Source of the DNA: Candidatus Omnitrophota bacterium
GTDB taxonomy: Bacteria > Omnitrophota > Gorgyraeia > Gygaellales > UBA12090
Reading direction: 5' to 3'
Length of the DNA stretch: 55,264 bases
NCBI GenBank assembly: GCA_030674475.1
Contig: JAUSCZ010000038.1
Location: forward strand, 1 to 55,264
This document shows positions 2 to 55,264 of this stretch, piece by piece. Numbering within the stretch: position 1 is the first letter of the stretch; every line of letters begins with the position of its first letter. The notes beneath the pieces were generated by a model that saw nothing but the letters and a program-made list of their open reading frames with translations, did no database searches and was not told the origin of the DNA. A program made the translations under genes and the position numbers.

Positions 2-283
2 GGAAGGCATACATCAGAAAAATCATCGGCTTCAGCTTTATACTTTAACGAGAGGATATTTACGCCTGGTGATATTTTGTGTGATTTATTGAGTATCCGC
101 GCCCCGCCCGCGCGCAGCGGAAAATCTTCAGCAAAATCCAGTTCTTCCGCCTCTTCGCGGGGCACTATCAGAGAAGCCTTTTCCCGCCGCTCGGACGGGA
201 AAGGCAATGGAAGCCTCTTTGGCGGGGCATTGCCGGTTAATACCAGCTCTGCGGCAGTTGATAACAATAGAAAGATAACATCT
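2..283 (+). other. Ser-rich linker at the left edge
   Basis: About 90 residues dominated by Ser, Ala, Gly and Arg, with a run close to S-A-K-S-S-S-S-A-S-S. It looks like an interdomain linker leading into the permease domain. No family is recognisable. Confidence 0.6.
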
Positions 284-3200
284 TCCGTAGGGCTTGGAAT
301 ATTGATTTCCTTAGGCTGTGCGGCGTTGGTAGCGTTTAAGCCATTTCTTGCTAAAAACCTTATAAAATATAATGTTGACCCCCTGGTAATACAAGCAAAC
401 TATTACCTGCAGGCTTTTGTTGTGCTTTTAATTTGTAAGGCTATTGGGTTTGTGAGGGATGGCAGAAAAGGCCTGGCAAACAAAATCCGCCTGGGTGCTT
501 CATTTACAAAAGGTGAATTAGGTATTTTAGCGGCAGGCGTGTTTACTTCTCAAATGTTGGCATCCCCGTTTTATTATTTATCTCTAAAATATAATTCCGT
601 GTTGATGACGGAGATTATCGTAAGGAGCTCGCCTGTTTTTATTATCCTTTTATCGGTGTTGTTGTTGGGGGAGAAGTTACCCTGCAGGAAGATTGCCGGC
701 ATATTTATAACTCTGTTAGGAGTTGTGGCGGTTATTTTTGCTTTAAAAAGCAGAGGGTCGTTAGGTAATATTACGGTTATGGGTGTTATTTTTGCTTCTA
801 TTTCGTCCGTATCTTATGCTATTGCTGACATAATAAGGAAAAGGACGCGTGATTTTATACCTGCCTCAACGGTCCTTTTTTGGGCATATTTGGTATCTTT
901 TCCTATAATGATAGGCTTTACCTATATCTTCGCCGGAGGGTTTACTTTTATTTTTAGCCTGCCTATGATGTTGATATCTATTATAAGTATGGTAACTGTA
1001 TGGTTGGCTTACCGTGCGATGGATTTTATTTCACCCGTAGAATATAGGAATATTATTAATACGACTCCGGTTTTTACTTTAGCGATAATGAGCTCTATTA
1101 GCCATAGTTTTCCGGATATCGCCTCAATATTAGGCGTAGGTCTGGCGATAACAGGAGTTGTTTTAGCTACAAAAAATAATAAGGCTTCTTCTGCAATCAC
1201 CTTAGCGCTTAATTCCGCGGAAAACGACTTATCTAAAGACGCGGTTGTTTTTGAATTGTTTTCCCGGTTGCCGCAATACGCGCAAGATAAAATAAAGGAA
1301 ATGCTTTCTGTGTTTCAGGGTGATGGAAAAATATTCTTAGCCGCGAAAGAACAATTGAAGAATATGGTGACCCAGAACGCGGGGGATGCTTCTGCCCGGC
1401 AAGAGATATGGGAAATAATTAAGCAATTAACGCAAGTCTTTCACCGGGCCCAATTACGTCAACTTAAGAGCGTTACCGCGTTAGATGCGGAAACGGTATG
1501 GGTTAGCTATGCCGACAGGGATTTGAAAGAGCATAGCGGTGGAATAATAGGCCTTGACGTCCAAGAAGTTTCTCGATGGAAATATCCCCGATTGATAGAA
1601 GAGTTTTATCAGCGTCTTAATCGTTTAAATGAGACTCTTATGCCTGATGACCGGGTGTCAATGAGCTATATCTCCCAGGATGCTATGCTTATTTTTCAAT
1701 TAATGAGCCTTATCCAGGAAGACCCGGGCGCGCGCCGCGTCCTTTCAGTGGGTATTGGCAATGCTCCCTGGGAAATGGCCGCCGGGGAGCATGGGCATAC
1801 GATTATAGGCATTGATTTGAATTTACAGAGCCTGCTATCTATAAAGCAATCAGAGATTTCTTTAGTGAAGGCGGACGCGCATTATTTGCCTTTTAAAGAG
1901 AATATATTTGACGCGGTGGTATTTTCGGAATCTATAGGCGATATGGATATTGAGATGGCACTTAAGGAGGCCGGCGCCGCGCTTAAGCCCAAAGGAAGAA
2001 TTATCATTACCACCTATTCTACCCAGCAGGTAAAAAGGATTAAAAGCACCTTTTATATAAAATACCCCTTCCAAATGATTAAAGAGGCCCTCATAAAGCA
2101 GGGTTTTTATCACATTGAACAAAGAGAGCTGGTCAGCCAATTTGTGATAGATCTGGTTGCTATCATAGGGGTAAAGCAGAATCTGTCGAAGAGGGAAATA
2201 GTTTCTTCTGGAAACGATAATGTTAGAAAAGGCAATTCTGAAAAGAACCCGGGAGAGGATGAAAAGGGGCATTATATAGATTTCATTATACCCAAGGCTT
2301 CGAGTTCATCTATAGCGCCACCGGAACAGTTTTTTATTTTACCTGTGGGGAAAGCGCTTGCGCAGGCAGGTTTAGCCTCCTCCTCAAGCGCGATAGAAAA
2401 AGATTCGGTAAACAAATTGAAAGAGGCATTTAATAACCTGCCCTGGGATAGCCGGGCCTTGGCGTATCTTGAGAATTCAAGCTTGAAAGAACGCCAAAAT
2501 TTGGCGGATATGCTGGAGAAGGACAACGGCTTTATAAAACTTATATCGAAGAATAATGCCATCAAGGCATACGGAGTAAAGAAAAATAACACGATGTATA
2601 TGCTTTTGTTAGCGCTTACTGAGAATAATGGTAAGGAATGGGCGGATGTAATAATTCCTGAAAGGCTTAAGGAAGTATTCTTTGGTAAAGGCGTGAGTAA
2701 CCTTATTTATATGGTGAGAGATGCTATCACGGAAGAGGATTACGGTTGTAATTATGGTTTTACGTTAAGAGTGGGGGTGGCGCGCGCGCAGGTAGTATAC
2801 TTTCTGACGCTTGGCGGACAATGGGGGAATATGCCCCAAGGGACAGACTATTGGTGGCTTGAGAAAAAGATGCCTGGAATGCTCTGCCCGTTATTTTCTC
2901 TGCGCGAAGATTATGATTTGGGCATCGGTAATTTAGACAGCCTTTATAAATTTATTGATTATATGGTATTAAAAGATTTTGATATGTGGTTTTCTCTTCC
3001 CACGACACAAATTGCTTCCGGTGACCCATGTCCATACGCCAGCCTAAGCGTTTTCGCGCACAATGATCTTTATCTGCCGCTTAACAGCCTTATAGGCCCG
3101 GAAAAAATACAACAATACCTAAAATCAGCGCCCGAACTAGCGCGAATACTGCCTGCCGCTAAAAACTCGCCTAAAATTGATTATTCGTCAGTATGCGCGG

Positions 3201-6200
3201 TAACCGCGCATATCCTCAGGAGCGAGTTTATTAATGAGGCATATCCTAAGATAATGAAGGGGGAGGCGGGGTTTGATGATTACCGTGAAGAAAATAAATA
3301 TTGGATAGATGATTATGCTCTTTTCCGCGTGCTGCTTAATTATTTTAAGGGAGATCCTTGGTGGCAGTGGCCGGATGAATACAAGAATAGGGACATCAAG
3401 GCTTTAAAGAGTTTCGCGAACATGCATCAGAAAGAAATAATCTTTTATCAATGGCTGCAGTGGATTTATGGTGCGTGTTGGCAAACGGTGAGAACATACG
3501 CAAAACAGGAGGGAAAGCGTATTATCGGGGATTTACCAATTTATCCTGCTCCAAACAGTGTTGAGGTCTGGGCTTGGAGAGATTTATTTGCTACTGATAA
3601 AAGCGCGGGAGCGCCTCCGGATCGATTGTGTCCGGAAGGACAAAATTGGGGATTATATCCTTATCGCTGGTTGGATAATTATGAAAATGTGCTTGAGTTC
3701 TGGATTAAACGTATCCATTATAGCGCGAAATTCTTTGATGGAGTAAGGGTAGACCATTTGCTGGGATTTCTTGGCGAATGGCTTATTGAGAAAGGGGAAA
3801 AAGCATCCGACGGCGCCTTTTATCCGGCACATGAAGATGAGATGGTTTCTTGGGGGAGGAAAATCTTAATTAGCTTAGCCAAGGCCGCCTTAGAAGACGG
3901 CATTGTCCTTATCGGTGAAGATATAGGCGAAAGACCGCCAAAGGTGAGGGAGATGCTGGATGCGCTTTCCGAGCAATTGCCTAACCTGTTTTTATATAAT
4001 GTGGTGGGTTGGAGGGAGAAGGAAATGGCAAGACAATCTCATACCTTGATTTGCGAGGCAGTCTTTGATAGCCCTTCTACATTTATTACCCGCTGGCCGG
4101 AATTATCTTATTCTGATAAGGAGCAGGTGAGAGGATTTCTGTCTGATTATGGATATGCTATTCAGCAAGGAGAATCCGCGGAGTCTATAGCCCTAAAGGT
4201 TATTGAGGCGATGAAGAAATGTCAAAACCTCTTTTATTCTCTGACGCTTCAAACTGTAGAGGGCTGGGTAGATGATTCCCGGATTAATATCCCCGGAACC
4301 GTAGGGCCGCACAATTGGACATGGAGAATGCCGGTTACCATTGAGTCATTGATAGAGCGGGAGAATCTTAATTCCATAAGACAAGAATCCAACAGCAATC
4401 CGCTTGCCCGCGAAGGCAAAAATGGAACTGCCCCCATTATTCCTCTCGCAGCAACTATGGATATTTATACGGCATCTCCTATTGAATACCCTCGGTTTAA
4501 AAACGGAATAAACATTGATTATCAGCCACAGGTTATTATGCCCGGAGACATCAGGATGGATTCTCCTCAAAGATTGGTAGTGGGAGATATAAATGATATT
4601 GTTGAGGGAGAAAGTGTGGTTCTTACCATGCATGATAGTCCCTTAGCATCCTGGGGAATAGGTGTGGCTAAAGAATACAAAGGATTACGAAATCAGGTGT
4701 ATATCCCGCGGGCGCGGTTATTTGTGATGGATAACGATGTCCCTTTTTATCATTGGCACTACGCGGCAGAAATAGGAATGATTAAGCAAAAAGGGAATAT
4801 CTTGGTTTATCATGATTGGCATGAAGATTTTAATCCCGCGGCACAAGTATACGTAAAGGCGTTGCTTGAGAATCAGGAAAAGCTGCGAAAATATCCTGAA
4901 CCTAGCGTTGCTTCGCCGGTGCGTTCTGGCCGCGGCGAAAAAAAGAGAATACCCATTACTGAAGAATCGTTTAATGCCTATTTTTTTAATCCGGTAATGA
5001 ACAATACAGATACTATTATCGCGATCGCGGCTAATTTAAAACTGCAACAAACCAGGCTTACTAATAATGACTATGGCAATATTTACGCGCCTTTTGTTAT
5101 TGAGCAATTTTATAATATGCGGCAGTTAAAGGAAAAATGGGCGGCAATGAAGGTGAAAATAGAAAGCCATGTTCAGGGCGCGTTTGAGTATCAGGTTGAT
5201 AAACCCGATTTTGAATCCCTTTTCACCGTCTATGATATTTTTATGGCTGTTCCCGAGATAAAAAATGCCATAGAAACCAAGATAAAAAATGTCATTATGC
5301 ATTACCTGAACTATCACCAGATAACCTTTACCCATATCAATGTGCTTAACAGACTCTTCTTTGAATATCTGCACCCTGAACTTGTGGTTGAGGCGTTATC
5401 CCACATCAGGCTGTTTCGTAATGGCGAGAACTTCAATTCTGAGGATATAGACTTCGGAAATCTCCAGGTGGTGGCCAAGAATACCTTTGCAACCTCAAAT
5501 GAAGGGCAGACAAAGAAAGATTTTTTCCAAGGACAACATAAGAAACTCGAAGAAATACTTCTCAAATTGCTTAAGGGAGAAGCAAATGAAGCGATAAGGA
5601 TTAACAGCGTCATCGTCTTTTTGCGTTTGATATTGATAGAGAATGATTATAAAGAGCGGTTCAGTAAACTGCCCCAGAATTATAAAGACGATAAAAACAA
5701 AGAGGCCATTATAAGCATTCTGAAATATTTTCTTACGGAATCCCGTAATCAAACATATATTACGGGAGAAGCATTAAAACGCTTTAGGATGAATACCTTT
5801 ACAATTTACCAGCAGCTTATTTCAACAAAAAAAACGTCTTCTCCTGTTGTCAATAGCAGTTCACGCAGAGTAGTGGGAGGTGATTCTCAGCGGGAAGATA
5901 AAATGAGTTCGCCGATAGAACAGGAGATTAACGCGGAAAGTAAACGCATTACCTTGAAAGAGGCTATTGAAGCGGACTTTAACAAAACCATTGACCCGAA
6001 CCTAAAGATGGTAACGGTTAAAAAGATATACCGTATTGTTTCTAATATTGCAAAAGAAGAGATAGATATGCAATCGCTCATGGTGGATAGGGATAATCCT
6101 TTAAAAGAATTGCTGTGGGGTTCGGTCAATGTGATTACCCGTCTTATCATGCATGGCTTGAAGTATTTCGTTGATAATGGCAATACCATTAATGAGGATA

Positions 6201-9200
6201 GGTACCGGGGGGCTATGGTGTGGTGGCTGAGGCGTTTATTGAATAATCGGGATTTTTCGCTTGTGGTTAAGGCTTCAGAAGGTCCGAAAAAAGGACATTC
6301 ACTTATTGTCCGGCCAACCTTAGTGCATGGAGAGCATTTAGGATTTGGAGAAGAAACCCTTGTGGATATGGTGCTCAATATACTGGAGATGGCACACGGG
6401 ATTACTAAGAGAGGAAAACAGGGGACAGTTGCTTCGCTTCTTTTTGCGCCGGTGAAAAAAGGTGAAGAAGCCATACCCTATTTGCCTGATGACTATATGT
6501 TTAAGATAGTGCTGAATAAGCATTTCGCGGATATTGATCTGGATGCGATCATAGAGAAATCTCTTGATAGGAATAGCGGAAGATTAAATGTGCGGCTTAT
6601 GGTGAAATTGCTTGCCGATGAATTTAAGAAGAGAAAAAAAGATCCGAAAGATATAAAAGTGATGAACCTTGACCGTGACCGGCATGAGGATTTATTTGAT
6701 GCATTCATAGAGAATGGTTTTACCATGGTAACTAAGGATTTTAAGAAGTTAGGCGAGTATGTGCGTAAAAGCGCAGGAAGGTATACAGATGGCAATATCA
6801 TTTGGCGGGAAAATGATGATTGGTCAGACGGCCTTGCCCTGGCATTAGGGGAAATGGACCTTATTATCGGCGCGGGAGGCATGTCTGAGGCAGTCAATAT
6901 CGCCGCGATAATCAGGAAACTTGGCGGAAAATTAAGAGGGATTGCCGTTGCTTCTGAATATATGCCTCATGGAGAAACGTTGAGCCATTTTGATCATATA
7001 TGGAATTTTTCGCCCAGTGAAACACGCAGGCATAAACGGTTTGGGCTTGACCCGCGCCAGATATTTACCGAGAATACCTTGCTCAAGGGTAATCCTCATG
7101 AGTCAGTCCTTGTCATAGGTATTATTAGAGATTATCCGTGGCTGGCCGATAAGATTGATGGAGTGAGAATAAAACCTGATACGGGTAAGGCCACGGTAAA
7201 TATTATTTGGCTGGCTGACGTTGATAACATTTATAATCTGGAAATTGAGGTAGAAACAAGTATCGCGCGATACCTTACGCAGGTTGCCGGGGCAAAACCA
7301 CCAGCTGAAAAAGTCAAAGCCTTATACGAATTAAGCTTAGCCTACGCGGAATTCGGATTGTGGAAAAAGGCAAGGGTAAAAATCGCGGACGCGTTAGATT
7401 TATGCAAACGGCATACCTTGGAAGAGTTATGGATGATTACCATAGCTGGTGAATATATAAAAGGGCTTGAGCAATTTGGCATAGGTGAGCCTGTGAACGC
7501 GATCAATGAAGCGATAAAGATATTTACCAACGCCTTGGAGATTATCAAAAAGCACAATTTGAAAGACACCCTGCATATTCAGCGGATGCTCAGACGTATC
7601 CATATGTACCTTATGGAACAGAAGATAAAAGAGGCAGAAGAGAATATGCGGTTTTTAGCCAGAGAAAAGAGGGAAGTCACGGCAAAACTATTTGATGAAG
7701 CGCTTGAGTTATGGAAAAAGGCATTTTCTTATGCCGGACACGAAGTGGATTTATTAGAAAGATGGAATAGCCTTCATCTTTGGCAGGTGCGCCAGGCATA
7801 TCAGGAAAGAATGCGAATGTTGTGGGAAAAGGGCACTAAAGAGCCTGATATTGCTACAAGGATAAAGATTGCCTATGCGGCATTTAACGAGTTCAGGGAT
7901 GAACGGTTAGTAAAAGAATATGAGGGCTGGCAGAAGAAATATAATGGAGATATTTTATTGTGCGTATTGTTGGATACGGCTTTCGCGGAGTATCCTCCGG
8001 CGCGGCGTAAGGCGCTTATAGAGGCATGGCTTGATTTTAGGGAACAGGTTAATGATTCCCTTTTTTACGCAAAGCGGTTCTATGCCTTTTATCGGCCCTA
8101 CGGTTTGACCAAGAAAATGGCATGGAGCCTGATTCGCTATCGTAATAATAAAAATACAAGAAAAATTGAGACAATCGGTGAGTTTTTAGCACTGCCTCAC
8201 CTAAAGGATAGCAGTAGGATTATAAAGTTTCTGCTAAATATTATTCCTACAGATGCAATGCTGGAAAAAAGAAGAGATAAGTTCTATCTCCTGCAGAAGA
8301 AAGAGCTGCTGCCGACTACCGCTACACAGGAAGAGCTTCTCTGGATCAGGCTTGAGGCAATGTTGAAAGCGGTAGAGAAAAAATTATTGCTGACAGGAAA
8401 AGTTTTCTATGATGATTCAGGTGATTACGCAGGCGCCCAGCGCCTTGCTGGGTATATTGCAGGGGTCTACAGTTATAACGCCCTTATCTTTCTTTCTATG
8501 GGGCATCCTCAAGGCGCAAAAGAGCAATATAAAAAAGCAATTGAATCCTATCTAGAAATACGTAGCAGGTTTGGCGGGTATTACCCTTATGAGTTTCAGC
8601 GTCAGATTGTAGATATATATAAGGAAATGGGCGGGAGATTTAAGAGTAGCGAGTTTTACCAGAACGCGTTAGGTGCCTTGGAAGATTTGCTTAATAAGGA
8701 AAGAAGAGAAAAAATATTTATTGACCCTCGTAATTTCGTGGCTATGGAAACGGCTGTTTTCTTTAATAAAGAGCGGCTGGAAAGAAAGAAATCGGATATT
8801 GAAAGGTTAATCAACTCTTTACCGCAAGCGAATAGAGCCGATACTCTTTTAGGGCTGGTGTCTTCCGCGATAGATTCAAACCCTCACCGCCGCGCGCAAA
8901 GCCCCGCGGTGAATTCCTCATCTATAGAGTATGGGGTTTCATATATTGATAGAGAAAACCTTGAGAGTGAGGTCCTTCAGGGATACGCGAGATTGTCAGG
9001 GCTTCCTCGCGAAAAAGCGCGGGAAAGCATAAGTAAACTTTTAAATAATATTAATGAAATAAGAGAAAAAGAATCTGTGATTAGACAAATAGAGTTATTA
9101 GAGAGCGCTCAGTATAAAATATTTCAAATCCAGGAGCCTTTTGGGATAAATGTCTATGTGTTAATCTATCGGAATAAGGATGGTAAAACACAAGTAATTT

Positions 9201-12200
9201 TAGTTGATGCCGGCCCCGGGTTTTATTTTAAAAAGCTAAAAGAGCAGCTGCGGGCGCGATTACGCGTCGCGCTTAATGATATTGATACCATTATTATCAC
9301 TCACGGACATCCTGAGCATATCGGGGCATTAGGATATTTCCTTGAGGAAAACCCCTCAATTAAAGTTATGGCCCATCCCGCCATAAAAGAAGTTATGCGT
9401 AATATATTCCCGGAGGATGAAGCAAACAGGGAGTATTATGAAAAATTAACCGGATATTATCATCTGGTCTTGGAGAATAAATTGCCGTCAGATATAACAA
9501 TCGCTCCATTTGATAGTAAGGAAAGAGGTGCTTATAAAATCGGAGAACTTTCTTTTTCGCGCTTAGGGGAGATATGTATCGGTAAAGAAGAGTTGATTGT
9601 TTTAACTTCGCCAAGCAAGGGCCCTCCGGCCCGGCACAGCATAGATTCACTCTTCCTATATTTATTTTCTTCAAAAGTACTTTTCAGCGGAGATATCCTC
9701 TTAGAAACCCCCAAAAGTAAAGCTATCCTTAATATCCTGCGCCTTAACCGTAAAGCCCATTCTTCAGAAAATGTTGATAATTTTGTTACCGCGCTAAAAA
9801 ACAATCCCGGGATCAATATCGTCCTTTCCGGACATGGCAGTGTTTCCTCCGCCTGGACATCTGCAAGCCCGGTTACTATTTTATTAGTGGATAATAATAA
9901 GTTTAGCCTGGATTCGCTCCTGCACTTTTTTTCCCGAAGACTTCCAGAAGCAGTTGTTTTAACGGCGAAAGATGGGATAGAAGCGCTTAAGATGCTTGCA
10001 GAACGCAAGGATATAACGCTTATTGTTATGGATGTGAAGATGCCACGGCTTGACGGCATAGGCTTAGTAAAGGAATTACTAAAGTTAAATAAGAAAATAC
10101 CGGTAATTGTTATAAGCGCATTACCAGATGATGCGGTAGACAGGCTTAAAGAAGAAAATATAGAAAAAAACGTGAGTGTGGTTATAGATAGAATGGATTT
10201 ACTTGATTTTCTCATTCCTTCCATAGAAAAAGTTTTACAGGAATTAAGCGGCCCAGGCGAAGTTAGCAGCGCTATTTTCAATAAGGAAATAACCTTGTTC
10301 AAAATAAAAGCCGAACTTAATTTAAAGGGGAGTTCTCCCGTAGGTGATGAAGAGTTTAAGGGGCTTATGCACGCCTTATGGAATCCTTTGGTTGTTACAA
10401 TGCCCGGATGGATAAGGGTTATCAGGAGAGATTATGGGCAGTACGCGGCAAATGAAAGGATGGGTAAATTTTTTAACGCTGTTGAAGAGTTCAAAAGATT
10501 GCTGGAAAAAGACCGGAAAAACAAACTATCCGAGAAAGAAGTAAGGAAAATTATAAATGATAATTTTCTCTCCTTTGTCTTGGCGTTTCAGGAGTTTCGA
10601 AAGGTAGATATGGATTCTTTTCCGGATACACTAAAACAGCTGGTGAATGAAGTGTTGCCTGAAGAGTATACAAAAGCAATAAAAGTTATGGATTCTTTGC
10701 GTTTTTGGGTCCCTTATTCAATGTCCCGCGTATGCGTATTCGCGATTATACAGCAAAGGACTAAAGCGCTCAAGATGAAATATCCCGCGGTGAACTTTGA
10801 GTTACGCGTCAGGCATTCCTTGAAGAAGGTTATTACTACCCAGGTAGATGTATTTGATATGGCTTTTGATGAGTTTATATTAAACGCGATAAAGTATAGC
10901 GGCACAAAAAAGATAATTCTTAAAGCTCGTCAGGAATGGGGAGAGCTTATTGTCAGCGTCACGGATTTTGGCAAAGGCATAGCAGCCAAGAGAATGGATA
11001 CCATAGTAGGAGGTGATACGGAGGCCAAAGATCTCTCGGAAGGCAGCGGCAGGGGGCTGCCTTCAATTAAAGCAGCCGTTGAGTCGGCAGGCGGAGAGTT
11101 ATGGATAAAAAGCAGGGAAAAACAAGGAAGCACCTTTTCCTTCAGCTTGCCTTTATTGCGCGAACCATCGCGGATAAAGAGGATGGCGATGAAACTGCTT
11201 TTTAAACAGCAGTTTATTATCGTGGTCTGCGGCCTTATGGGCTCGCATCGTAAAGCGGTAAGCCACGCCTTGAGCGCTTTCTTTGGCTGCCGCTATATTA
11301 ATGCCGGGTTTCTTATGGAGTCAGCCGTTTACTTGCTGTGGAAAGAAATGGAAAACAAGGCGATAGATCTTGATAGCCAGGATGAAGTGGCACAGCTTAT
11401 AAAAGAACTATTGCCGCGTATAGACTATGCGTGTGAGCCGGTAAAGATTGACGGTGTTGATACCTCCGAGATTATGGAGCGGAGGGGCCATTCCTTGCGT
11501 AAAGAGATACGCGTAATTATTGATAACCGGAGGGAAGAGTTTTATGCCATAGCCTGTTATCCGCGGGTAAAGCAGGCCATTGAAAGCTATCTGCGTATAA
11601 TAGTAAAGAAAACAGTCGCGTCCGGAAAGTACGCGGGAGTGGTTGTTCGTACCAGCGAGCCGTATCCCTGGAAAGAGGCAGTTACTCTTGTGCTTACGGC
11701 ACCGCTTGAGGTGAGGGCAAAGAATACAAAACGCGATCCGGAAGCGATACGCGCCTGGGATAAACTCACGGGAAATGAGGATTACGGCCCCTGGCGTTTC
11801 CCGGAAGTGCGTATGTATGAAATACCGGTTGAAAAACTTACGCATCGTCAGGCATATATGAAGGCGCGCGAAACTGTAGCGAAAGAAACAAAGAGCCTCG
11901 CGGCAATTATCTACGCGGCGGCTAAGTCTGTAAGCGCATTTTTATCGAAATTAAAAAAGTATCAGAAACAGAATAACACACCGGATCAAAATAACGATTC
12001 CCGCGGCACTTCTTCACCGTTAACCGGTATGCAATCATCACCAAAAAGTGACGCTAACTCACATCATAGTGCTTCTCCCGTGGATGGTGTTCCTGTTCAG
12101 GGGATTACTCCGCACGGGGTTGATGATTTTGTTTCTCTCAAGACCGTTGCCTCAGCGCTTGAGCGTAGAGACCGGGAGGCGCGTTTGAGGTTTTATTTCC

Positions 12201-42200: not shown

Positions 42201-45200
42201 AAATTAAGCCGGAAAGGATAGATTTTATTAAGAGTGGGCTGGAAAGCATTCTTGAGGCTATGCCAAAGAATATCATCGCGGATTTGAAACTAAATATTTC
42301 TGCCGGAGGAGCTGAGTTAAAAGTAGTTTACGAAGACGCGTTAAGCCAAAGCAGTTTGCTTAAGAATTATAATGGGATATGCCTGAATATAGGCAAAGAT
42401 GTCCTGCCTAAGATATCCGATAACCTTGATTTGCTTTTACTCTGGGATGTGCTGTCCGAGGGAATAGCTTCTTTAATACTTAGTGATTACGATGAGTTAA
42501 AGCATGCCTCCCGGACTAACGAAAACGCTTATTTTAAGATAGAACTGATTAAGGCCTTGTTGAATTATAAGGCCTATTTATACATTTACCACAAGACGCT
42601 TTATAGGCGCTTCTGGAATCCTGAGCATTACTGGGACAAAAAGACGCCTGGTGAGCAGGACAAGCTTATTGACAAATATCGTCAGGAATTAGACGAGAGT
42701 ACTCAAGAGATGGACGGCATTTATCAAGGGAGAATATTCTTTAATGTTATGGGTGATTGCGACCCTATGTTCTTGGTAACCTATTATATTCATATCCTTA
42801 TGAAGAATATTTTCTTCAGCGAAAAAACCATCTACGATAATATTATTAAGATACGAGAGCTGGAGGTTTTAAATAAGCTCAGCTTTACCCGGTTAAGGAA
42901 TGTGTTTAAGGAATTATTTTTTAACGGAATTATCAGGCTGCCTTGGCGCGGTAATAGCTTTAAAGAAAGGAATTCCTTCAGTCATTTTGACGATACCGGG
43001 TATCTTGCTGAGTTAAAAGATATGTTGTTTACGGCAAAAGACATAAATGTCTTCTATCGTGGATTGCGCCGGCTTATCCAACATCTCCTGCCTTTGACGG
43101 AAAAGGGTTTAGACGACGAGATAAAAATCCTGTTTGCTGAAGATATATTTTTATCTACCGATAGGGAAAAGGCGGTAAAAAAGGCAATCGGCGAAATACT
43201 CATCCGCCGTTTAGGCGAAAATGCTCTTAGTTGCGTAATGAAATTCCTTAGCGGGGATAGAAGTTCAGCTTTTGTGCCCTATATGGATATATTACCCATA
43301 ATTTTAAATAGAGGGGATAATGCCGATAATTATGAATCATTAAGAAGCCTGCCAGGGAGAGATATTAATTATAATTTTGTTTCCGGCGAAGATGGTATGG
43401 AAACAATGGACTGGGTGCCTCGCCTCTTTTTAATCCTGCCCAAAAAAGATTCTTCGGATGGCGGATATATTCAGTCCGCCTCGCCGGTGATGGTTAAAAG
43501 GGGACAGTTAGAAGGAAACGGTTCAGGGGATACTAATTTACACTTGTCGAGTCAGCGGAAAGAAATCCTTCTTTTCGGAGACAAACACTCTCCTTCAGAT
43601 TCCGTAACAGAATTTTTATCGGCAGTTTGTGATTTAGAACATAAGTTGAATTCTTACGGGGATTCCGATTTAGATGAAAGACAAAAGATAATTAAAGAAT
43701 ATGAAGTACGATTGAAAGAGTTGATAAAAGGTTGGTCAGGGGAAATAGCAAACTATAAATATAATTTAAATAAAATCAAGAAAGTGTTGTCCTTAGGTAA
43801 TATTAAGTTTATTGCTTTGGAAATGTCTCAAGGAGAATTGTTTAGCGAGAAAGATACCGTAAAAAAACTTAAGGGGAAGTTAATAAATAACTTTCAAGCT
43901 TGGGGCATTGATATTTCCCAAGAAGGAATGGAAGATCTTTTGTTGTATTTATTTGGACCAATATTATACTTGGCTGCCCATGAGGACCCATTAGTGAATG
44001 ATAGGGCTTTAATATTAGCGGATAGCTATGAGTTTAAAAAAGAATCGCAAAAGACCCGCGATGAATTTCTAGAGAAAGTCCGAGAGATAGAAAAGATATC
44101 TTATTTTTATGAAACAATGGAGAGTTTCTACGGGTTTTTCCGTAAAATATATGATGCTAATGAATGCCCCCCTAATGAAGAAAAAGATTATTTATTAGGA
44201 CTGTTTAACGGCAAGGATAAAGAATTAGCCCGGAAGGCTATAGATAAATTTATTGAGCATTTTGAATATTTAACAGTAAAGAGAGAAGAATATATAATTC
44301 AGCAATTAATTGTTTTATCCGATACTGTTTTGTTATACATTGGCGATAGGCATATTAAAAGCATCGCAGCGGGATTAAAAACAAGGAATATCGCTTATGA
44401 GATAATCGAGAGCGCTAAGGATCAGGCCTTGAAATGTGAAAAGAAAGAAGCCTCTTCAAAACCTCCGGAAGTCTCATCAAGAGGAAAAGAGGACGGTTCT
44501 ATTTCTTTGAGCAGCCCGTTGGGGATGGAGCAAAAATTTGGACATGGAGTTACGAATTATTATTTCGGCAGAGGCTCCTGGGGCGATAGTCGCGAAAGCG
44601 GGATGAATTATAGTTGCGAGGCAGTGGAAGCATCATTTTTACCTATTATTGAGCAGCTAAAGCGCTATTTCCCGAAATTCATTGGCGTGCGATTATTGGA
44701 AATTGGCTGTGGGACAGGTAATCTTCTAAAATATCTGGAAAGCCACGGGATGCATGTCCGTGGTATTGATAATGACGCAGATACGGTTGCTATAGCCAGA
44801 CAAAAAGTAAAAAACGTGTTTTTTCTTAAAAAAATATCCGGAATTAAAAAAGCTTTGCGCGGGGAGGTGTTTGATATTGTTATCAGCAGTTTTTTACTTC
44901 AAAAACCAACACTGACTGATACCGAAATAGGAAATGTCGTGAAATATGCCAATGCCTTATTAAGAGAAGGAGGTGTGCATATTCACGCGGCAGCCCATAA
45001 GATCCCTCTTAAACATTTTCGTTCGCGGGGAATTACTATCATAACGGATATCTCTTGCGACTCCAAGATATATCCCTATTATCATCTTATTGTTGGCAAG
45101 AAACATTCTAAGGAGAGCGTTTCATCGGGGATAGCTCGGGGAGTTCGGGGGGCGCAAAACTTATTTCTGGTCACCGGGATTGCCGGTAAGGCAGGCATCC

Positions 45201-48200
45201 CGCTGGAGGATGAGGAAAAGGTGATGCCAGTTTCTAATCTGCCTGAAATATGCAGCACCTTTTTGTGGGACAGGCTATTTACTACAGGTAAATATTTAGG
45301 CGTGTACGTGCACAGGAAGGTTGATATTGAGATGGCCAAGTTCTTCTATCGGCAGGCGTTGGCTTACATCAAGAATCTCAATTCCGTAAAGCTTCCCGTT
45401 TTTATCCATATCTATGAGGATTCCGTCGCGAAGCTTAAGGGTTTCCTTAGCCTTGCCTGTTTGAAATTGGATGTAGAGGGCATCGGCCTTTTCATCAAAA
45501 CTTATATTCATAGGTTATACCTCTTTCAGCCAATAGGCGGTGATAATGATTATCTCAGAGTCAAGTTTTTTATAAACAACTTCCAGGGTTTTGTTTCCAA
45601 ACATTTTTTGAGCAATAAGGCGCCTGCCAAAGCTATGCAACTGTCTATCGGTATGCCTTATGGTATTTTCTATTTCCTTTTTACTGAGATTCCTTTGACT
45701 TATCCTAAGTTCCGCATGATGGGTATATATGAATTTCACAATTCAGAATATAGCATATCATTAATGATGTGTCAAGGTGTGAGAAATGTATGTGTGATCT
45801 TATCTGTCGGCAGTCCGCTGGGGGAAGGGGAAAAACGGCCGCTGTCTTTATTTACCCAGAAATTAAACTCCAGTAGCGGCTTGATAGCGTTTATTACAGA
45901 TGTTTTGGTAGAGTTTATAAAGAATTGCAGGCTTTTTATTCTCATAAAGGTCTTGGGGATTGATTGGCGGGGGATTTCTCAATATGCCCAGAGGAAATTA
46001 CAGGCTATCGGTAACCGGGCCTACGGGCCGCTTTGGTATGTTTCTCAATATAGCTTAAATCCCTGTGTCCGGGCGAACGCGTTACTGCCGTTACTCCATA
46101 TCGGTATTTCTATTGTCGGAGCATTAAAAAACGGGCCTTTTCCTGTTTTGATAAGAGCCCTGAAAGACCGGCACCCTGCTGTTCGAGAAAAGGCGGCTGA
46201 GGCAATTGCGATTTTTGTCAGGTATGACTTTCGAATGCGGCCCAAGAAAGCAAGCCGGTTAGTGGAAGAAACATTAGATAACTACATCAAAGACCTGGGA
46301 GAAACTAATCCGGATATGCTGGTGCACATTATTGGTTTGACAGGGAAATGGACCATTGATGGCGCGGTTAATTCCTTGATGCGGTGCGTCGAGCAGGCAA
46401 CAAGCCGGCGAGATGTCCGTGTTGCCGCCATTAAAGCCCTTGGCGGGTTCAGGGATTTCAGGGCATTGAGAATACTAATGCCACTGCTTGAGGAAAAAAA
46501 TATCGAGAAGTGCCAATTTTGGAGTTTAGAGCGGATCCAGGTTGCGGCTGCCAGGGCCATCGGCGCCCTGGGTATTGCCGATATCATCCCAATGCTTGAG
46601 GTCGCAGGTGAGTTCTGGTCTAAAGCAGGTTATGACCTAGCTGTTGATGATCAGGAAACTTTAAGGAGCATTATTGTAGAGATTAAGATAGCGGATGCCG
46701 CGGCCAAAGATGATCCCAAAAATATTGCCTTAGCCCTGCGTTATCAGCAGAGTCCAGATGGAAGTATTCATCCCTGGGTTCAGGTGCTTGCGGATAGATA
46801 TAAGTTATCCATGGATGTGGCCAAAGAGGTCTTGATATATTTGATTAAACCAGATGAACGCACAACAGATATTTCTTTGCGCGAGATCATCCAGGAATTA
46901 GAGGTTATGGATGATCTGGCGATCATCACCCGCTTGCGGAAGATAACGCAGGGGTTTAGAAAAGAAGAAAATAATATGAAAGAAGCGGTTAAGAATTTAT
47001 TCCCTAAAAAAGACACCCGCCCCCATACATGGCTTATTCATATAGATTGTATAGCGTGTAAGCATGAGCACACTTTACCGAAGTTAAGGGCAGAAATAGA
47101 AGGGTTGGTAAAAAGCCTGGTGGCTAAAACTAATATAAGGCGCGAAGAAGATTTCTGTCCTGGTGATTGTTCAAAAATAGGCGGGGTCCTTCTATATAAG
47201 CTTTTTGATGAACCTAAACACGAATTAAAGACTCATGAGATTAACGCGCTCATCAAAACATTGACCGGAAGAAAAGAAATCGAAAGTTCAGACGTTCTCA
47301 CCTTTACTGATTTATTGGAAGTAATCAAGAAAACCACCTTGTATGATCGTCACCTTCAGATGCTTATGATCTATGGGCTGGCTGAGGAAATAAGAATGAA
47401 AAAGCTGATTTTCTCCGGCTCTGACCTTGATAGTTTACTAAAAGAAATTAAGACGGTCATAGAAAGCCAAAAACAAACCAGCAGCCCGCTGGGCCAAGGC
47501 AGGAAAATAGAAGCGTCCCCATTTACTCAATTAACAGTAGCATCGGCGCTTAGCGGGCCTGTTTCCTCTATCGCAAAAATAACCTTTGGGGCGGATGTAA
47601 ACACCCGGACCAACAGCACCCCGGCTAGGCCGATAATGATGGAAAAAGGCCTGCTGAATATTAAACCCGACTATATCCGGGCCGCAGGCAGTGCCTTAGT
47701 CAAAAGGCTTAAATTGAAAGTGTTTCCTTCTTCATCATTATACGCCAATGAAATAAGCTTAAAACCTCCGGAAGTCTCATCAACCATTACTAACAAAGGC
47801 CCGCCCCGGTGGACCTTAAAAGCATTCAGTCTCGTTTTTAATGGCTGTAGCTTCTTTCTGTCAATAGTAATTATCCCGCCTGATTTTATTCCCGCAGCAA
47901 ATTTGACTGTTGTTGGACGGATAACGCCCATAACCGTCTTGTCTACTCTTTATTGTTCTTTTCCCCTGCCGCAAAACCCGCGCAGAGAAGAAAATACAAC
48001 CGTCCCCATTTCTACCAGTGTACTTAGTTCTTTTGTCTCCAGCTCGCCGGCGAAGCATAATAATAGGACCGTCTCCAATTTTTCCAATCATCCGGCTGAA
48101 GATTTCTTCGCGACTTTTGAAGGGCCGGTCTATTATCCTGCCAGCGAACTGGACATAGAAAGTATTGTTCTGTTGACGAAATTGTTTCCGAAGCTCAGGA

Positions 48201-51200
48201 AATTGGTGTATGCCGATGTTTTAGATCCGGATGAAATGAATTCGGCAACTATTTTTAAACCATGGGAAGATGACGATCTATGCGCCTATTCAGCTTTTCG
48301 ATATTATAGATCCGATGATATGCCATTGCTGCAGCGCCAAATGCAAAATAAATTAGCCCAATTTCAATATTGTGAAGAGGCGGTTATTAATCAAAAAAGC
48401 ACTTCGGTGAGTATTGTTTCAGCTGAAAGGATGAAACTGTGGCTTCAGATAGCTTTTAAGGAAAATATTAAAAGCGCGCCTTGGATTAACGGTAGAGTTA
48501 TAGAGATCAACTTTTTAGTTCTTGATATTTTTGATTATAAGAAAACATTTGACGTAATTTATGTCAATTATCCTGGATATTGCGGTACATTAGCCGAAAG
48601 CGAAAGATTTTGGGAAACGATGCATAGACAAACCTCTGCGCGAGGGTATTTATTAGAAACAGATGTGCATTGTAAAACGAATGAAATCGAGGCCTTTAAG
48701 AATGGGTTTTTTGTTAGGCTAGCTCAGACGTCTGTCGAGTATGAACATCGTTTTTATAGTATAACCATCTTGCAGCCGCTATCACGGGATGATAAGCGCC
48801 CGCTTACCGGCAAGAAGGGCAAAAATTGGGGCGGTTCTGTTTCTAGCTCACCAGTGGAGGAATTAAGAGAGTTATTTAAGAAGTCTCAAGAATTTTTCTA
48901 TAGTGAGATTAGCGTGACGAATAATGCGCGGGGAAAAACTGATGGTCCTATTTCCGGCAGCAGCCCGCTGGGGGAGCTTGTTAAGAAGGCCTTGCCGTTT
49001 ATGGTCGCGGCTGTGTGCGAATTTTTGGGGCTTTCTTTGGTTTTCGCGGATAAGATAAATAATCCAGTCCGAATTATGCCCAAAAATGAAAATATCAGCC
49101 TCCGGTTTTCTCCGGAAGAAGTTAGCAGGCGTATCAATAAGAAAATACTAAAGATATTTCCTGATGCGGTAATTGTAAGGGATGGGAATAGATATATTAA
49201 AGAAATTTACATATTAGGGGCAAGCGATATGCCTATAGAAGCTTATAGGAAAGAGGAAGAGAAGATTGTTCTTGCCGATATAAAAGAAAACGCGGCCCGA
49301 AGAGCGCAAGATTTCATAGGCCATATTAGTAACCTGGAGAAACTTTGTTTAAATTATAATATAAATACGGATCATTTGCTTGATTCTTGCGGGAGGGATA
49401 GATTATTCCGATTTGCCGAAGATTGCCGCGCGATATTGGATTCTCGCGCCGCGGATAAAGAGAATGACGGCGCGCTTGCGTTCGCGGATTTGCCGGATGC
49501 GGATATAAACGCGATTTATATTATTGATAATTTAAAGCGGACTATTTCATTTGTGGAAAATAAGTTAAGTGCGGTAAGGCCGGATTATCCCGGGATAGGA
49601 GATCCGAGCTTTTGGCCTTATTATTTAGCTGAACAGTGCTATGTGGAAGTTCTCCTGAACGGATATTATAAGGGGATAGTGCCGGATAAATTTATATTTT
49701 CACCCGCAGACTGCGTTTGGTTGGAAGATGCCGGCCGCGTATTCTTAGGATGGTCTTTGGAATTGATGTATAGCCTGCCGCAGGAGGCCGAGAGCAATAA
49801 TCCTGAAACTTCGGAAGATTATTTTTATCCCCACAAACCAGGTTTCGCCCAAGAGGTTAAGGTGGTTAGCCGCGTTGTTGGTTTATCTGCCCGAAAAGCG
49901 TTTAAGATGATTAAGCAGATAGTTGATGATTGTGTGAAAAACGCCGATAAGTCTAAATCAATTCCCAATAAAGGCAGCAGCCCGCTTGAAAAAAATGAAC
50001 CCGTTCCCTTTTCTTTGAGCGTGCATTTTCAAGGGTTTGATGATCGTAAGATAATTTCATCGCTGCCGGTGGGGACGATTGAGGTAAAACCCGATAAATT
50101 TAACCGTAGTGAACAGTTGATTCTTTGGGATGATAAGAGAGAGTGTTTTATCGAAGATGAAGCTTATATGACGAAGCTGGCTGATTTTATGCGGCTGAAG
50201 AATCTAAAAGCGCAGTGGCACTTCCCCGAGCTGGTTGCCATGGCTCACGGAAAAACAAAAGAGTGGTCTATCGGGGATACGGATGAATTTGGCAGGTTAT
50301 TGGTATATTTTGAATTCTTAGAGAAAATGAGGCAAAAATATAGTTTAGCAGAAGAATTAATTGTTACCGTGCACCCTCCCAAGGAAATACTTACCTATAA
50401 ATTCTCAAGCCTTATAAAAGAATACAATCTGCCTGCCACCATAACACACCATAGTCAGATACCACCTAAAATTAAAAGACAAATCGAGCGTGATATCCTG
50501 AAAAAGGCTAATCAGTTCCTGGTGCTTCTGGGAAATATGATACAGGAAAAAGGTTGGCGGATAAAAGTTGGGGTAGAGAATATGCGCCCTTCTACGCAAG
50601 AATTATGGCGCATAGGTAATAAAATTTCTGATTTTAAACTCTTGTTGCCAGATACCAATGCATGTATCGGGCTGACCCTGGATACCGGGCATATGCTTTT
50701 GACAGGTGAAACATTGAATTTTGAGAATTTTCTTCGCTTTGCCCAGCGGCATAAGAAACGTATTTTTAACATCCATTTTCATGAGAATCGCGGCAAAGCC
50801 GATGACCATATGTTCCCGACGCCCAGAGGCCTCAAGGGGCTCTACGAAAAGACCATAACTTTAGCTTTGATAGAAGGGATCCCCTTAGATGTGGAGGTAA
50901 CACGAAAAGCCTATAAGCAGAAAAAACTTATTTTATTATTTAATGCTTTATCAAATGAACTTAAACAAAGGCAAGGTAAATTTTCCGGCGGCAGTCCGCT
51001 TAATCAGCTGAGCCGTAGGGTATTGCGGATTGCCAAAAACAGCCGTCTGCTTGCGGTTTTTGACGTCCACGGCACCTTGCTTGAGCCGACCTGGAGGCAG
51101 GAATACGTGAAAGTCTATCCCCGGCTCACCGCAAAAAGCGAGAGAGAGGCTGTGTCCTGGGTCAATGGCCTGGCTTCTGATATAGGCGAATCAGAAGTTA

Positions 51201-54200
51201 TTAAGATGCTTTCTGAATTATCCGGATATTCTCTGGAAGATACGCGGAAATCTTTCACCGCCCTGCGCGAGGATATCCGGAAAAAGCTTACTCCCCCGGT
51301 CAATCCGGGGGTTTTAGGGTTTATCGAAGCCTTGCGTAGACAAAAGATACCTATAGTTATTGTCAGTGGTTCAGAACATTCCTTGATTGAGTCCCAGCTC
51401 AATCATCATGGGCTCCTGGAATACATCGGCGCCGAGATGGTTATCGGCAGGGATGACCTGGAGCAGGGAACTCCCAAGGATAAGATGGGTTTAAGGGCCG
51501 CGGCCATAGAGAGCGTAATGGCCCATTATTCCGGGTATACCCTGCTGTATTTTAATGATTGGCTTGACGGAATTAAGGAGGTTAATTCCATGGGCGGGAT
51601 AACCTTTGGCATCCTTAACGGCGAAGGCAGGGAGAGGGAATTTAACCGTGAATCTTTGACTGGTCAGGGAGTAGATTTTATCCTGGAGGGCTGGCATAGC
51701 TGGCCGGAAATATTCGCGGTCCTAAACATAGGCCGCAAGGAGAAGAAAGTAAGGGGATATTCGTTTTTAGATGCCCGCGCCAGGCGCAAGCAAATAGAGG
51801 ATAAGATTTATACCAATACCCGAAAGATGGTAGAGGCCTTTCAACCGTTTCTTAAGGAGAAGGCAAACGGTCAGGAAAAAGAGCTGAAACAGTTATTTCC
51901 GGAAATCCACGGCTATTTATATCAGAGGCCGCAAGAGACAAATTATGATTCAGTCCTCGTGCCGGTTATCGGCGGACGGAACTTATCTCTCCTCAAGCAT
52001 ATTGTTGAACGCGGCCTGGGCCGTAAACTACTGGGGATAGAGAGATATGACATCGCTTTATTCCAGGACACCCCCGGCATATCCTGCCAGGAGTTTAGGC
52101 GGCTTTCTAAGATAGTCAAGTCTCTGAATAAACAAGGCATCCTGCCTTATCTGCGCTGCGCCTTTCTCTATCATGATATTGCTAAGGCCGGACTAAAGCG
52201 GCTAAGGCGCGTCTGGCAGGGAATAAAAGGGCTGGACCTGCTTATCCCCAACAAGGCCTCGGCCTTAATCTTGCGCGATAAAATTTATCCCGGAAGCCTA
52301 AGGAGAGGGCTTTTTGAGAATATCGCCTTGTTTGAGGGACATCCTCACCGAAATATCTTGAATGAATTATTTTATCGGATAATTGAGACCCGGGGTTTGG
52401 CCGGCCAGTGGATAAGGGGCGAGGTTAGCTATGAGGTCTTTGAGGATTTCACCGGCTGGCTGCGCACCCATCTTTATTCCCTGGCCGCGGCCTTAGGCTG
52501 TAAAGACGACTTGAATCAGGCGGCCCAAAGGATAACCGATACCGTGTATCTTTTTAACTTTCTGGATACCTCCAGTATCCGCGAAGGCTTGATGGACAGC
52601 CGTCTGAACCGTGAATTTGAAGAATTCTTCGCGGATTTCCGCAGGGTAATCACCCCCGGAAACGGAAAATTCCTGGCCAGCTGGCAGGGGCAATTACTTT
52701 CCCGATGGGATGATTTCCGCTCACATAGAGAGCGCCGGGAGTATCTAAAAGATCGCTTAGGCCGCTTCCGCAAGGAAAGAAGGGATATCGGCGAGCCAAG
52801 TGAGGAAATAGACCGGATCATAGATTCGCTAAGCCCGCAAGCCTTATCGGTATTTTTTTACAATATCCGCTATCTCCAGGGTTGGTATGTGGAGAGCGCC
52901 ACCTTCGGGCTGATGGCTGATGCCCAGCTAAAGCTTATTGCCCTGGCCCTATCTATGGCCGGGAGAAAAGGGCTGGATATGGAAAAACCGTTCCATATCA
53001 ATTTCTTTAAGTTGATGCGCCTCTTATCCGGCGGCCGGCATGAGTTTGATCCCTATAAGACCCGCATCCTGGAGGCGATGTTAAAGGATATCAGCCTGGA
53101 AGATATCCTCTTGAAGTTGGAAACGGCAGAGCCGTTTGACCGGGAGTCTTTATCTTATCAGAAAAAACAACCGCTGGGGGCGGTGTCTATGGTTATAGAC
53201 GGGCAAAAGGCCATTTCTTTTGATTTCTCTTTCAGCGATGAGGCAAATAAACTCTTGGAGCTTATTCATATGTATGAGCGCAGCAGCCTCCTCCGGCATC
53301 AGCAAGCGTTGAATATGCTCTTGGATCTCCTGGGCTTGCGCCGGGACCAGTTTGACCGGGTGGGTAATCAGGATACCTATATGAAGGCAATGGCTTCTTC
53401 CTGGGATGATAAGGCCAGGCTTTTAAGCTATGGCAAGGGCCCGGTCTGGGTGGATATTGGCCCGGCTGACGGTCCCACCCTGGAGATAGCCCAGAAACTA
53501 AAGTGTAAAAAAGGGATTGAGAGGATATTGGCCATAGAAATATCCCAGGAGGCCATAAAGGCTTTAAATAAAAGAAAGACGGAACATAATCTTTCCCTGA
53601 TAACGGCTGTAAGAGGCGATGCTAGCGAACTGCGGGAATTATTAAAAAAAGATGGAATTGCTTTGGCTGATACCATTGTTTTCTCCTCTGTCCTCCACGA
53701 AATTTACAGTTACAGCCGTAAGGACGGCCGGATTTTTAACCTGGATTTGGTAAGAGATGTTTTGCGCGAGGCGCTCCTGGCCTTGTCGGGCGGCGCCCGT
53801 CTACTTATCCGTGACGGGGTAATCCCCGAGGATGGGGAAGAAGAGCAGATTCTTGAACTTAGCGGCGAAACCAATAAAGAGGTGTTTGATTATTTTGTCC
53901 GGCATTTCCCGGGCCGGGATTTGAAGGCGGCTTACCGGGTTATAGATGAGGACCGCCAGAATCAGCTCTGGAAGATTGTTATCCGGCGCAAAGACGCGAT
54001 GGAATTCCTGTTTAAACTTACCTGGTGCTGGCGGCCGGAGTTTAACCCCTGCACTTTCTGGGATGAGGTCAAAGAGCAATACGGGGTTCTGACCAGGAGA
54101 GGGTATCTGCGATTGCTCTATGAGATTGCCAATGAACAGTGTATTGACCTAAAAGAAATCCTCCTGCCTAAAGAAGAGCGGTCGTATCTCCAGCCGGGAT

Positions 54201-55264: not shown

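Follow-up and report, generated by a model that had tools for sequence, protein, structure and literature searches.

Single open reading frames (ORFs) of more than 20 kb have been described in Omnitrophota, including an ORF of 39,678 residues in V. archaeovorus (Seymour et al., 2023; PMC10066038). These published giant ORFs are rich in transmembrane (TM) segments, feature large extracellular or adhesion domains and contain few annotated domains, and the role of giant Omnitrophota genes has been described as poorly understood (PMC10066038). More recently, the integrity of such giant proteins was considered unclear in a 2025 paper (PMC12057145). The window analyzed here, a stretch of 55,264 nucleotides, is occupied by a giant ORF that resembles the published ones in several respects. 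The host genome belongs to Omnitrophota, as does its family-mate G006 (Omnitrophica WOR_2 GWF2_43_52), and the ORF, at 55.3 kb, is likewise a single frame of more than 20 kb that is poorly conserved; simple hydropathy predicts some TM-like segments in it. It differs from them in its product, which strings together paralogues of metabolic enzymes and carries a recurrent linker code. No adhesion or carbohydrate-binding domain was found in the window by Pfam at E<=0.01, although such domains are not defining for all published giants.

Other known systems share some of these features. Viral polyproteins, such as those of picornaviruses and flaviviruses, are also single ORFs with many functional units and a short conserved peptide at the borders, but the present chain is bacterial and far longer, its cargo consists of cellular enzymes, and both cleavage and a cognate protease are here only putative. 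PKS and NRPS megasynthases are similarly very long bacterial multi-domain enzymes, whereas the giant ORF has unrelated housekeeping-type enzymes in place of an assembly line, with no KS/AT/ACP or C/A/PCP modules found by Pfam in either of its contigs (C33 and C38, described below). Shorter chains related to the giant ORF, predicted to be exported, recall two more systems. PGK-TIM fusions of the Thermotoga type (NF010569) also join glycolytic enzymes in one chain, with exported TIM modules scoring against the TIM portion of NF010569, though far below its cut-off; the exported chains differ in adding a signal peptide, N- and C-terminal domains, further enzymes, and permuted PGK and enolase. Type IX secretion cargo is laid out as a signal peptide, cargo and a C-terminal domain, as are the exported relatives with their conserved C-terminal domain; unlike that cargo, the relatives occur in Omnitrophota records and carry an N-terminal domain without a Pfam, NCBIfam or PDB-fold match and a C-terminal domain without a PDB-fold match. 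To our knowledge, bacteria are not known to have large processed polyproteins of metabolic enzymes. The literature searched yielded no paper on Omnitrophota polyproteins, nor any description of the linker code, of the enzyme chains or of how they are exported, though a prior mention is possible.

The earlier note on this DNA had claimed that one stop-free ORF of at least 18,421 codons fills the window and is open at both ends, and a stop scan confirmed this. Frame +2 (positions 2..55264) comprises 18,421 codons with 0 stops, and each of the other five frames contains 641-1,760 stops, with longest open runs of 70-300 codons. An alternative code or readthrough is unnecessary, as in-frame stops of any kind are absent. 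The frame is open at both ends because the window is the entire contig C33 of the host genome (2.19 Mb, 92% complete, 42 contigs), and the contig itself ends there. That the frame is coding and not a product of chance is indicated by modules shared with a same-genus genome under purifying selection. Gene sizes are ordinary across most of the sampled host genome. Other long ORFs, wholly or partly open, lie on C11 (L008), C26 (L015) and C18 (L011) of the same genome; these are of a repeat-rich, adhesin-like type without linker enrichment.

The same note had proposed extending the contig, and C38 was found as a probable continuation, whose 8,199-codon open frame closes with a TGA at C38:24598. 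C33 ends in the N-terminal part of a FolD module and C38 starts within one, with the FolD C-terminal part located at C38:652-1095 in a giant frame; apart from one canonical FolD, the host genome contains only this single C-terminal part of FolD in a giant frame. Over its final 42 bases, C33 aligns to C38:138-180 at ~88%, and no exact overlap was found when joining contigs by their ends. A DNA pattern of the linker, present in 23 forward-strand copies and 0 reverse copies, occurs in the host genome only on C33 and C38. From the FolD halves and the end match, we infer that the two contigs probably adjoin, and their adjacency would give one ORF of ~26,600 codons. The segment C38:1-137 (L022) is not a clean continuation of C33; strains may vary here, or the end of the contig may be misassembled. 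Further modules on C38 are FTCD_C, a response regulator, PanB, a PPDK-like module and a divergent SecA. Divergent SecA domains are also reported to feature in the West-Roberts giant-gene preprint.

Modules of the window were called by Pfam, which gave ~25 at E<=0.01 and roughly 21 above curated cut-offs (Table 1). The earlier count of more than 30 recognizable families is thus reached only if FabD-like, HD and trypsin-like modules named by eye are included, and Pfam alone falls short of it; the accompanying description of a chain made mostly of cytosolic-type enzymes in an Omnitrophota giant ORF is borne out by the Pfam modules. The FabD-like module shares 35% identity with one module of a G051 ORF of 3,229 codons. 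Simple hydropathy predicts 18 TM-like segments in C33, of which 7 are in the single EamA module. Trypsin-like H/D/S and HExxH motifs were seen by eye in chain modules, and a search for protease identity with two trypsin-like modules and one HExxH module returned no significant match.

Table 1. Modules and example linkers of the giant ORF, with its probable continuation on C38.
Feature	Position	Strand	Basis or remark
EamA transporter module, 7 TM-like segments	293..1177	+	Pfam, hydropathy
Methyltransferase module	1742..2008	+	Pfam
4-alpha-glucanotransferase (GH77) module	2888..4333	+	Pfam
GlpX-type fructose-bisphosphatase module, partial match	6212..6718	+	Pfam
Metallo-beta-lactamase-fold hydrolase module	9140..9730	+	Pfam
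Linker SASP	9860..9871	+	response regulator domain starts 3 residues on
Response regulator receiver module	9878..10129	+	Pfam
Histidine kinase ATPase module	10862..11155	+	Pfam
PHP phosphoesterase-like module, below cut-off	15428..15736	+	Pfam
Linker SSPL (AGC AGC CCG CTG)	18059..18070	+	
Sigma-70 region 4 module	19967..20122	+	Pfam
Xylose-isomerase-like TIM barrel, below cut-off	22886..23287	+	Pfam
HAD hydrolase module	24017..24262	+	Pfam
Linker ASPV	24485..24496	+	immediately upstream of PGK module
Divergent phosphoglycerate kinase (PGK) module	24536..25594	+	Pfam
FabD/acyltransferase-like module	25793..26782	+	named by eye
Linker SSPL	29540..29551	+	
CoaC (flavoprotein decarboxylase) module	30368..30793	+	Pfam
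NUDIX module	31013..31375	+	Pfam
CoaB module	31724..32281	+	Pfam
Transglutaminase-like module	33107..33421	+	Pfam
Second, more divergent CoaE-like kinase	33647..34195	+	
CoaD (nucleotidyltransferase) module	35585..35977	+	Pfam
CoaE module	36116..36637	+	Pfam
Linker SSAL	36707..36718	+	
Linker SSPL	37874..37885	+	
Linker SSPI	38798..38809	+	upstream of ThiG-like module
ThiG-like module	39167..39724	+	Pfam
Methyltransferase module	44696..44974	+	Pfam; 66% identical to G002, dN/dS 0.20
HEAT repeats	46139..46507	+	Pfam
Linker SSPL	49976..49987	+	
Second xylose-isomerase-like TIM barrel, below cut-off	50525..50812	+	Pfam
HAD hydrolase module	51053..51502	+	Pfam
Zeta-toxin-like kinase P-loop module	54461..54604	+	Pfam
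Linker SSPV	55061..55072	+	FolD domain starts 3 residues on
FolD N-terminal piece, cut by contig end	55079..55261	+	Pfam
Probable continuation of giant ORF	C38:~138-24597		then TGA at 24598

By sequence, the chain duplicates housekeeping enzymes in divergent form, and a canonical stand-alone gene is present in every case checked. Canonical stand-alone PGK, CoaBC parts, CoaD, CoaE, SecA and FolD are all encoded elsewhere in the host genome, which rules out the chain as the sole-copy source of essential genes. The window PGK and the canonical PGK of the host share 38% identity; the former retains most active-site motifs, with GGGD now TGGE. The GH77 module retains its main motifs, and in the FolD piece the catalytic lysine position is, by eye, apparently lost. 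Divergent PGK modules within giant or long ORFs are also found in many relatives, together with a canonical PGK.

Between the modules lies a peptide motif, SS[PA][ILV], SASP or GSP[LV]. Strict sites number 49 in the window, compared to 3.4 in shuffles. A broader pattern gives 54 sites, only one of which falls within a Pfam domain at 21% domain coverage (P=5e-5), with profile-match borders serving as the domain borders. Among the 27 SSP[LVIM] sites there are 20 different codon spellings, and all 11 SSA sites differ from one another (11 spellings), with both AGY and TCN serines in use; because synonymous spellings are so many, the linker is seen to be conserved as a peptide and not as DNA. Several linkers do share a 48-nt DNA repeat, but codon diversity rules out this repeat as the general cause of the linkers. 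At several linkers (18055-18102, 37870-37917, 45805-45852 and, inverted, 55000-55024) there is a repeat that terminates in a GGGACAGCG-like sequence and resembles a REP-type element or a transposon end read in frame. The frequency of linker sites per 1,000 residues is 2.8 in the giant ORF and 2.2 in 22 other ORFs of the host genome, vs 0.19 in 608 control ORFs drawn from sampled stretches of that genome, making the motif ~14x commoner in the giant ORF than in ordinary proteins.

Most of these 22 ORFs feature a signal peptide, a conserved N-terminal domain (NTD), cargo and a C-terminal domain. In complete ORFs of the order, a Sec signal peptide (recognized by eye) is usually followed by the NTD, which spans ~340 residues including the signal, then by the cargo and a GGID C-terminal domain. 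The NTD is present in 93 of 127 genomes of the order and in at least 19 copies in the host genome, and when 84,980 GTDB species were searched, the best 79 loci were nearly all labelled Omnitrophota. It has no Pfam or NCBIfam match, and neither its predicted structure (pLDDT 82) nor the C-terminal domain gave a PDB fold match at E<=0.001. Linkers mark both ends of the cargo: in 15 of 19 host ORFs, one follows the NTD by no more than 60 residues (random expectation 0.17), and in 16 of 18, one precedes the C-terminal domain by no more than 40 (random expectation 0.13).

The cargo of these chains includes glycolytic enzymes, among them triosephosphate isomerase (TIM). Exported cargo in the host genome includes two aldolases with TIM, enolase with PPDK, PGM/PMM, and iPGM. 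A single 3,600-residue chain in a relative combines GAPDH, PGK, an aldolase-like module, TIM and enolase, and chains of other relatives carry PFK, GAPDH and PGK; PGK and PPDK; or PGK and enolase. In some exported chains, PGK and enolase are circularly permuted; in L078 (G055), L082 (G045) and L083 (G053), the C-terminal half of PGK is placed ahead of the N-terminal half, and enolase is permuted as well. When compared with known active sites, the TIM and enolase copies among the exported cargo of the host (contig C23) retain their catalytic residues. Canonical TIM, GAPDH and enolase exist in the host genome beside the exported copies, for which the canonical TIM-PGK-GAPDH gene cluster at C2:69233-71805 serves as reference. 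Nine exported ORFs with NTD and C-terminal domain, on C1, C2, C3, C21, C24, C27 and C36, have cargo without any Pfam match. Neither the NTD nor the GGID C-terminal domain occurs in C33 or C38: the start of the giant ORF lies beyond the assembled sequence, and its end at C38:24598 is without the C-terminal domain. In the favored reading, one linker-defined system comprises both the giant ORF and the shorter enzyme chains with signal peptides, and the giant ORF may likewise be exported.

In certain genomes, the place of the linker is taken by DGG. These DGG-type genomes contain no SS-type sites (23 DGG and 0 SS-type in G026; 15 and 0 in each of G059 and G046), and SS-type genomes have few DGG sites. 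The codons of the DGG linker vary too. In a PGK tree, G048 (SS-type) and G059 (DGG-type) contribute modules that group as sisters (support 100/100); long branches obscure one vs many origins in this tree, and only this pair was used. As sister PGK modules carry different linkers, the linker follows the genome and not the module. Such a pattern would be expected of an enzyme that processes or modifies linkers genome-wide.

Giant ORFs of this kind recur in relatives. The same-genus genome G002 contains a 6,572-codon ORF with the same modules in a different order. Between host and G002, dN/dS is 0.16-0.42 for measurable modules (two pairs are saturated), with the SecA-like module 83% identical at a dN/dS of 0.29. 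In the same order, contigs that are open throughout reach 11,919, 12,767 and 13,505 codons. Complete ORFs with ordinary neighbors also occur there, at ~3,600 and ~6,800 codons. A ~480-nt in-frame element is present in three copies in the window (16671-17150, 26838-27314 and 47535-48014; 66-92% DNA identity) and also in the same-genus genomes G001 and G002. It evolves more loosely (dN/dS 0.57), and its + strand product looks like the antisense of a coding sequence.

The best explanation of these observations, to which we would give an even chance, is that the window encodes a giant polyprotein that is made whole and then cut or otherwise processed at lineage-specific linkers. One giant gene would specify a polyprotein of probably ~26,600 residues, consisting of divergent and shuffled second copies of housekeeping-type proteins along with unknown modules, all linked by the short motif. 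After translation of the entire chain, an enzyme with a specificity fixed per lineage (SS[PA][ILV], SASP and GSP[LV] here, DGG elsewhere) would cut or otherwise specifically process it at the motif, and the released modules would act as separate proteins, presumably with enzyme activity. In this reading, the shorter chains of the phylum, with their signal peptides, take a second glycolytic set out of the cytoplasm, possibly for activity in the envelope or directed at a host or prey cell.

The main alternative, somewhat short of an even chance, is that the protein stays uncut, as beads on a string. The linkers would then be flexible hinges or modification sites (e.g., for Ser O-glycosylation), and the folds would form a scaffold, an adhesin or a multi-enzyme assembly. 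The linker statistics suit a modification or sorting motif equally well as a cut site, and the linkers are rich in Ser, Pro and Ala; motifs of this composition resemble O-glycosylation contexts. The TM-like segments in C33 and the CoaBC-to-CoaE block, in which 2,239 residues pass without a linker motif, are also consistent with an uncut protein, as is the proposal that Omnitrophota giant proteins are surface coats or adhesins (PMC10066038). However, modules are freely shuffled among same-genus genomes, DGG occupies the same place as the SS-type linker though it lacks a residue typical of O-glycosylation, and Pfam detected neither adhesion nor carbohydrate-binding domains in the window.

It is improbable that the chain is instead a gene graveyard, in which decaying duplicates were fused by the loss of stops and are translated to little functional effect. 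The strong divergence of the modules, the loss of some catalytic residues, the very long branch of the window PGK and the accumulated in-frame DNA repeats would be expected of such decay. They must be set against the purifying selection on shared modules, 55 kb without a stop, catalytic motifs mostly retained in PGK and GH77, and a linker peptide that has been kept despite codon drift. An ordinary operon with lost stops, each module having its own internal start, would account for modules that resemble separate genes with linkers at their borders, yet this is very improbable given the initiation signals. Ordinary genes of the host genome show a Shine-Dalgarno signal (25% vs 3% internally), whereas of 111 linkers none is accompanied by a Shine-Dalgarno sequence plus a start, and ATG occurs less often around linkers than around random positions. 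Separate translation starts for each module, which the earlier note had named as evidence that would refute a single ORF, are thus absent at the linkers. An assembly artefact, whether a chimeric contig or collapsed repeats, is unlikely in the extreme: the window comprises an entire contig that is open at both ends and the first ~137 bases of C38 give no clean match to the end of C33, but independent MAGs have the same architecture, some with complete ORFs that lie within contigs of 38 to 328 kb, and randomly joined pieces would not hold one frame.

Returning to the processed polyprotein, a more specific version can be put forward tentatively. Omnitrophota may make enzymes, including a second, exported glycolytic set, as giant polyproteins that a lineage-specific protease cuts at a genome-wide linker code, with the code having switched between SS[PA][ILV] and DGG across the phylum and the modules having been kept.

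Four points go beyond the earlier note: the modules as second copies next to canonical genes, the peptide linker code, the family of exported relatives, and the probable continuation and end of the ORF on C38. With one peptide code common to every chain of a genome, and a different code in other genomes, polyprotein processing becomes directly testable. Exported copies of glycolytic enzymes, with active sites that appear intact by sequence, prompt the question of whether a widespread, uncultured phylum runs metabolism beyond its cytoplasm, or within a host or prey. The polyprotein reading likewise gives a framework in which the function of giant Omnitrophota genes can be considered. Ultimately, the giant ORF and its relatives suggest that bacteria may make enzymes as giant, possibly cut-up precursor proteins.
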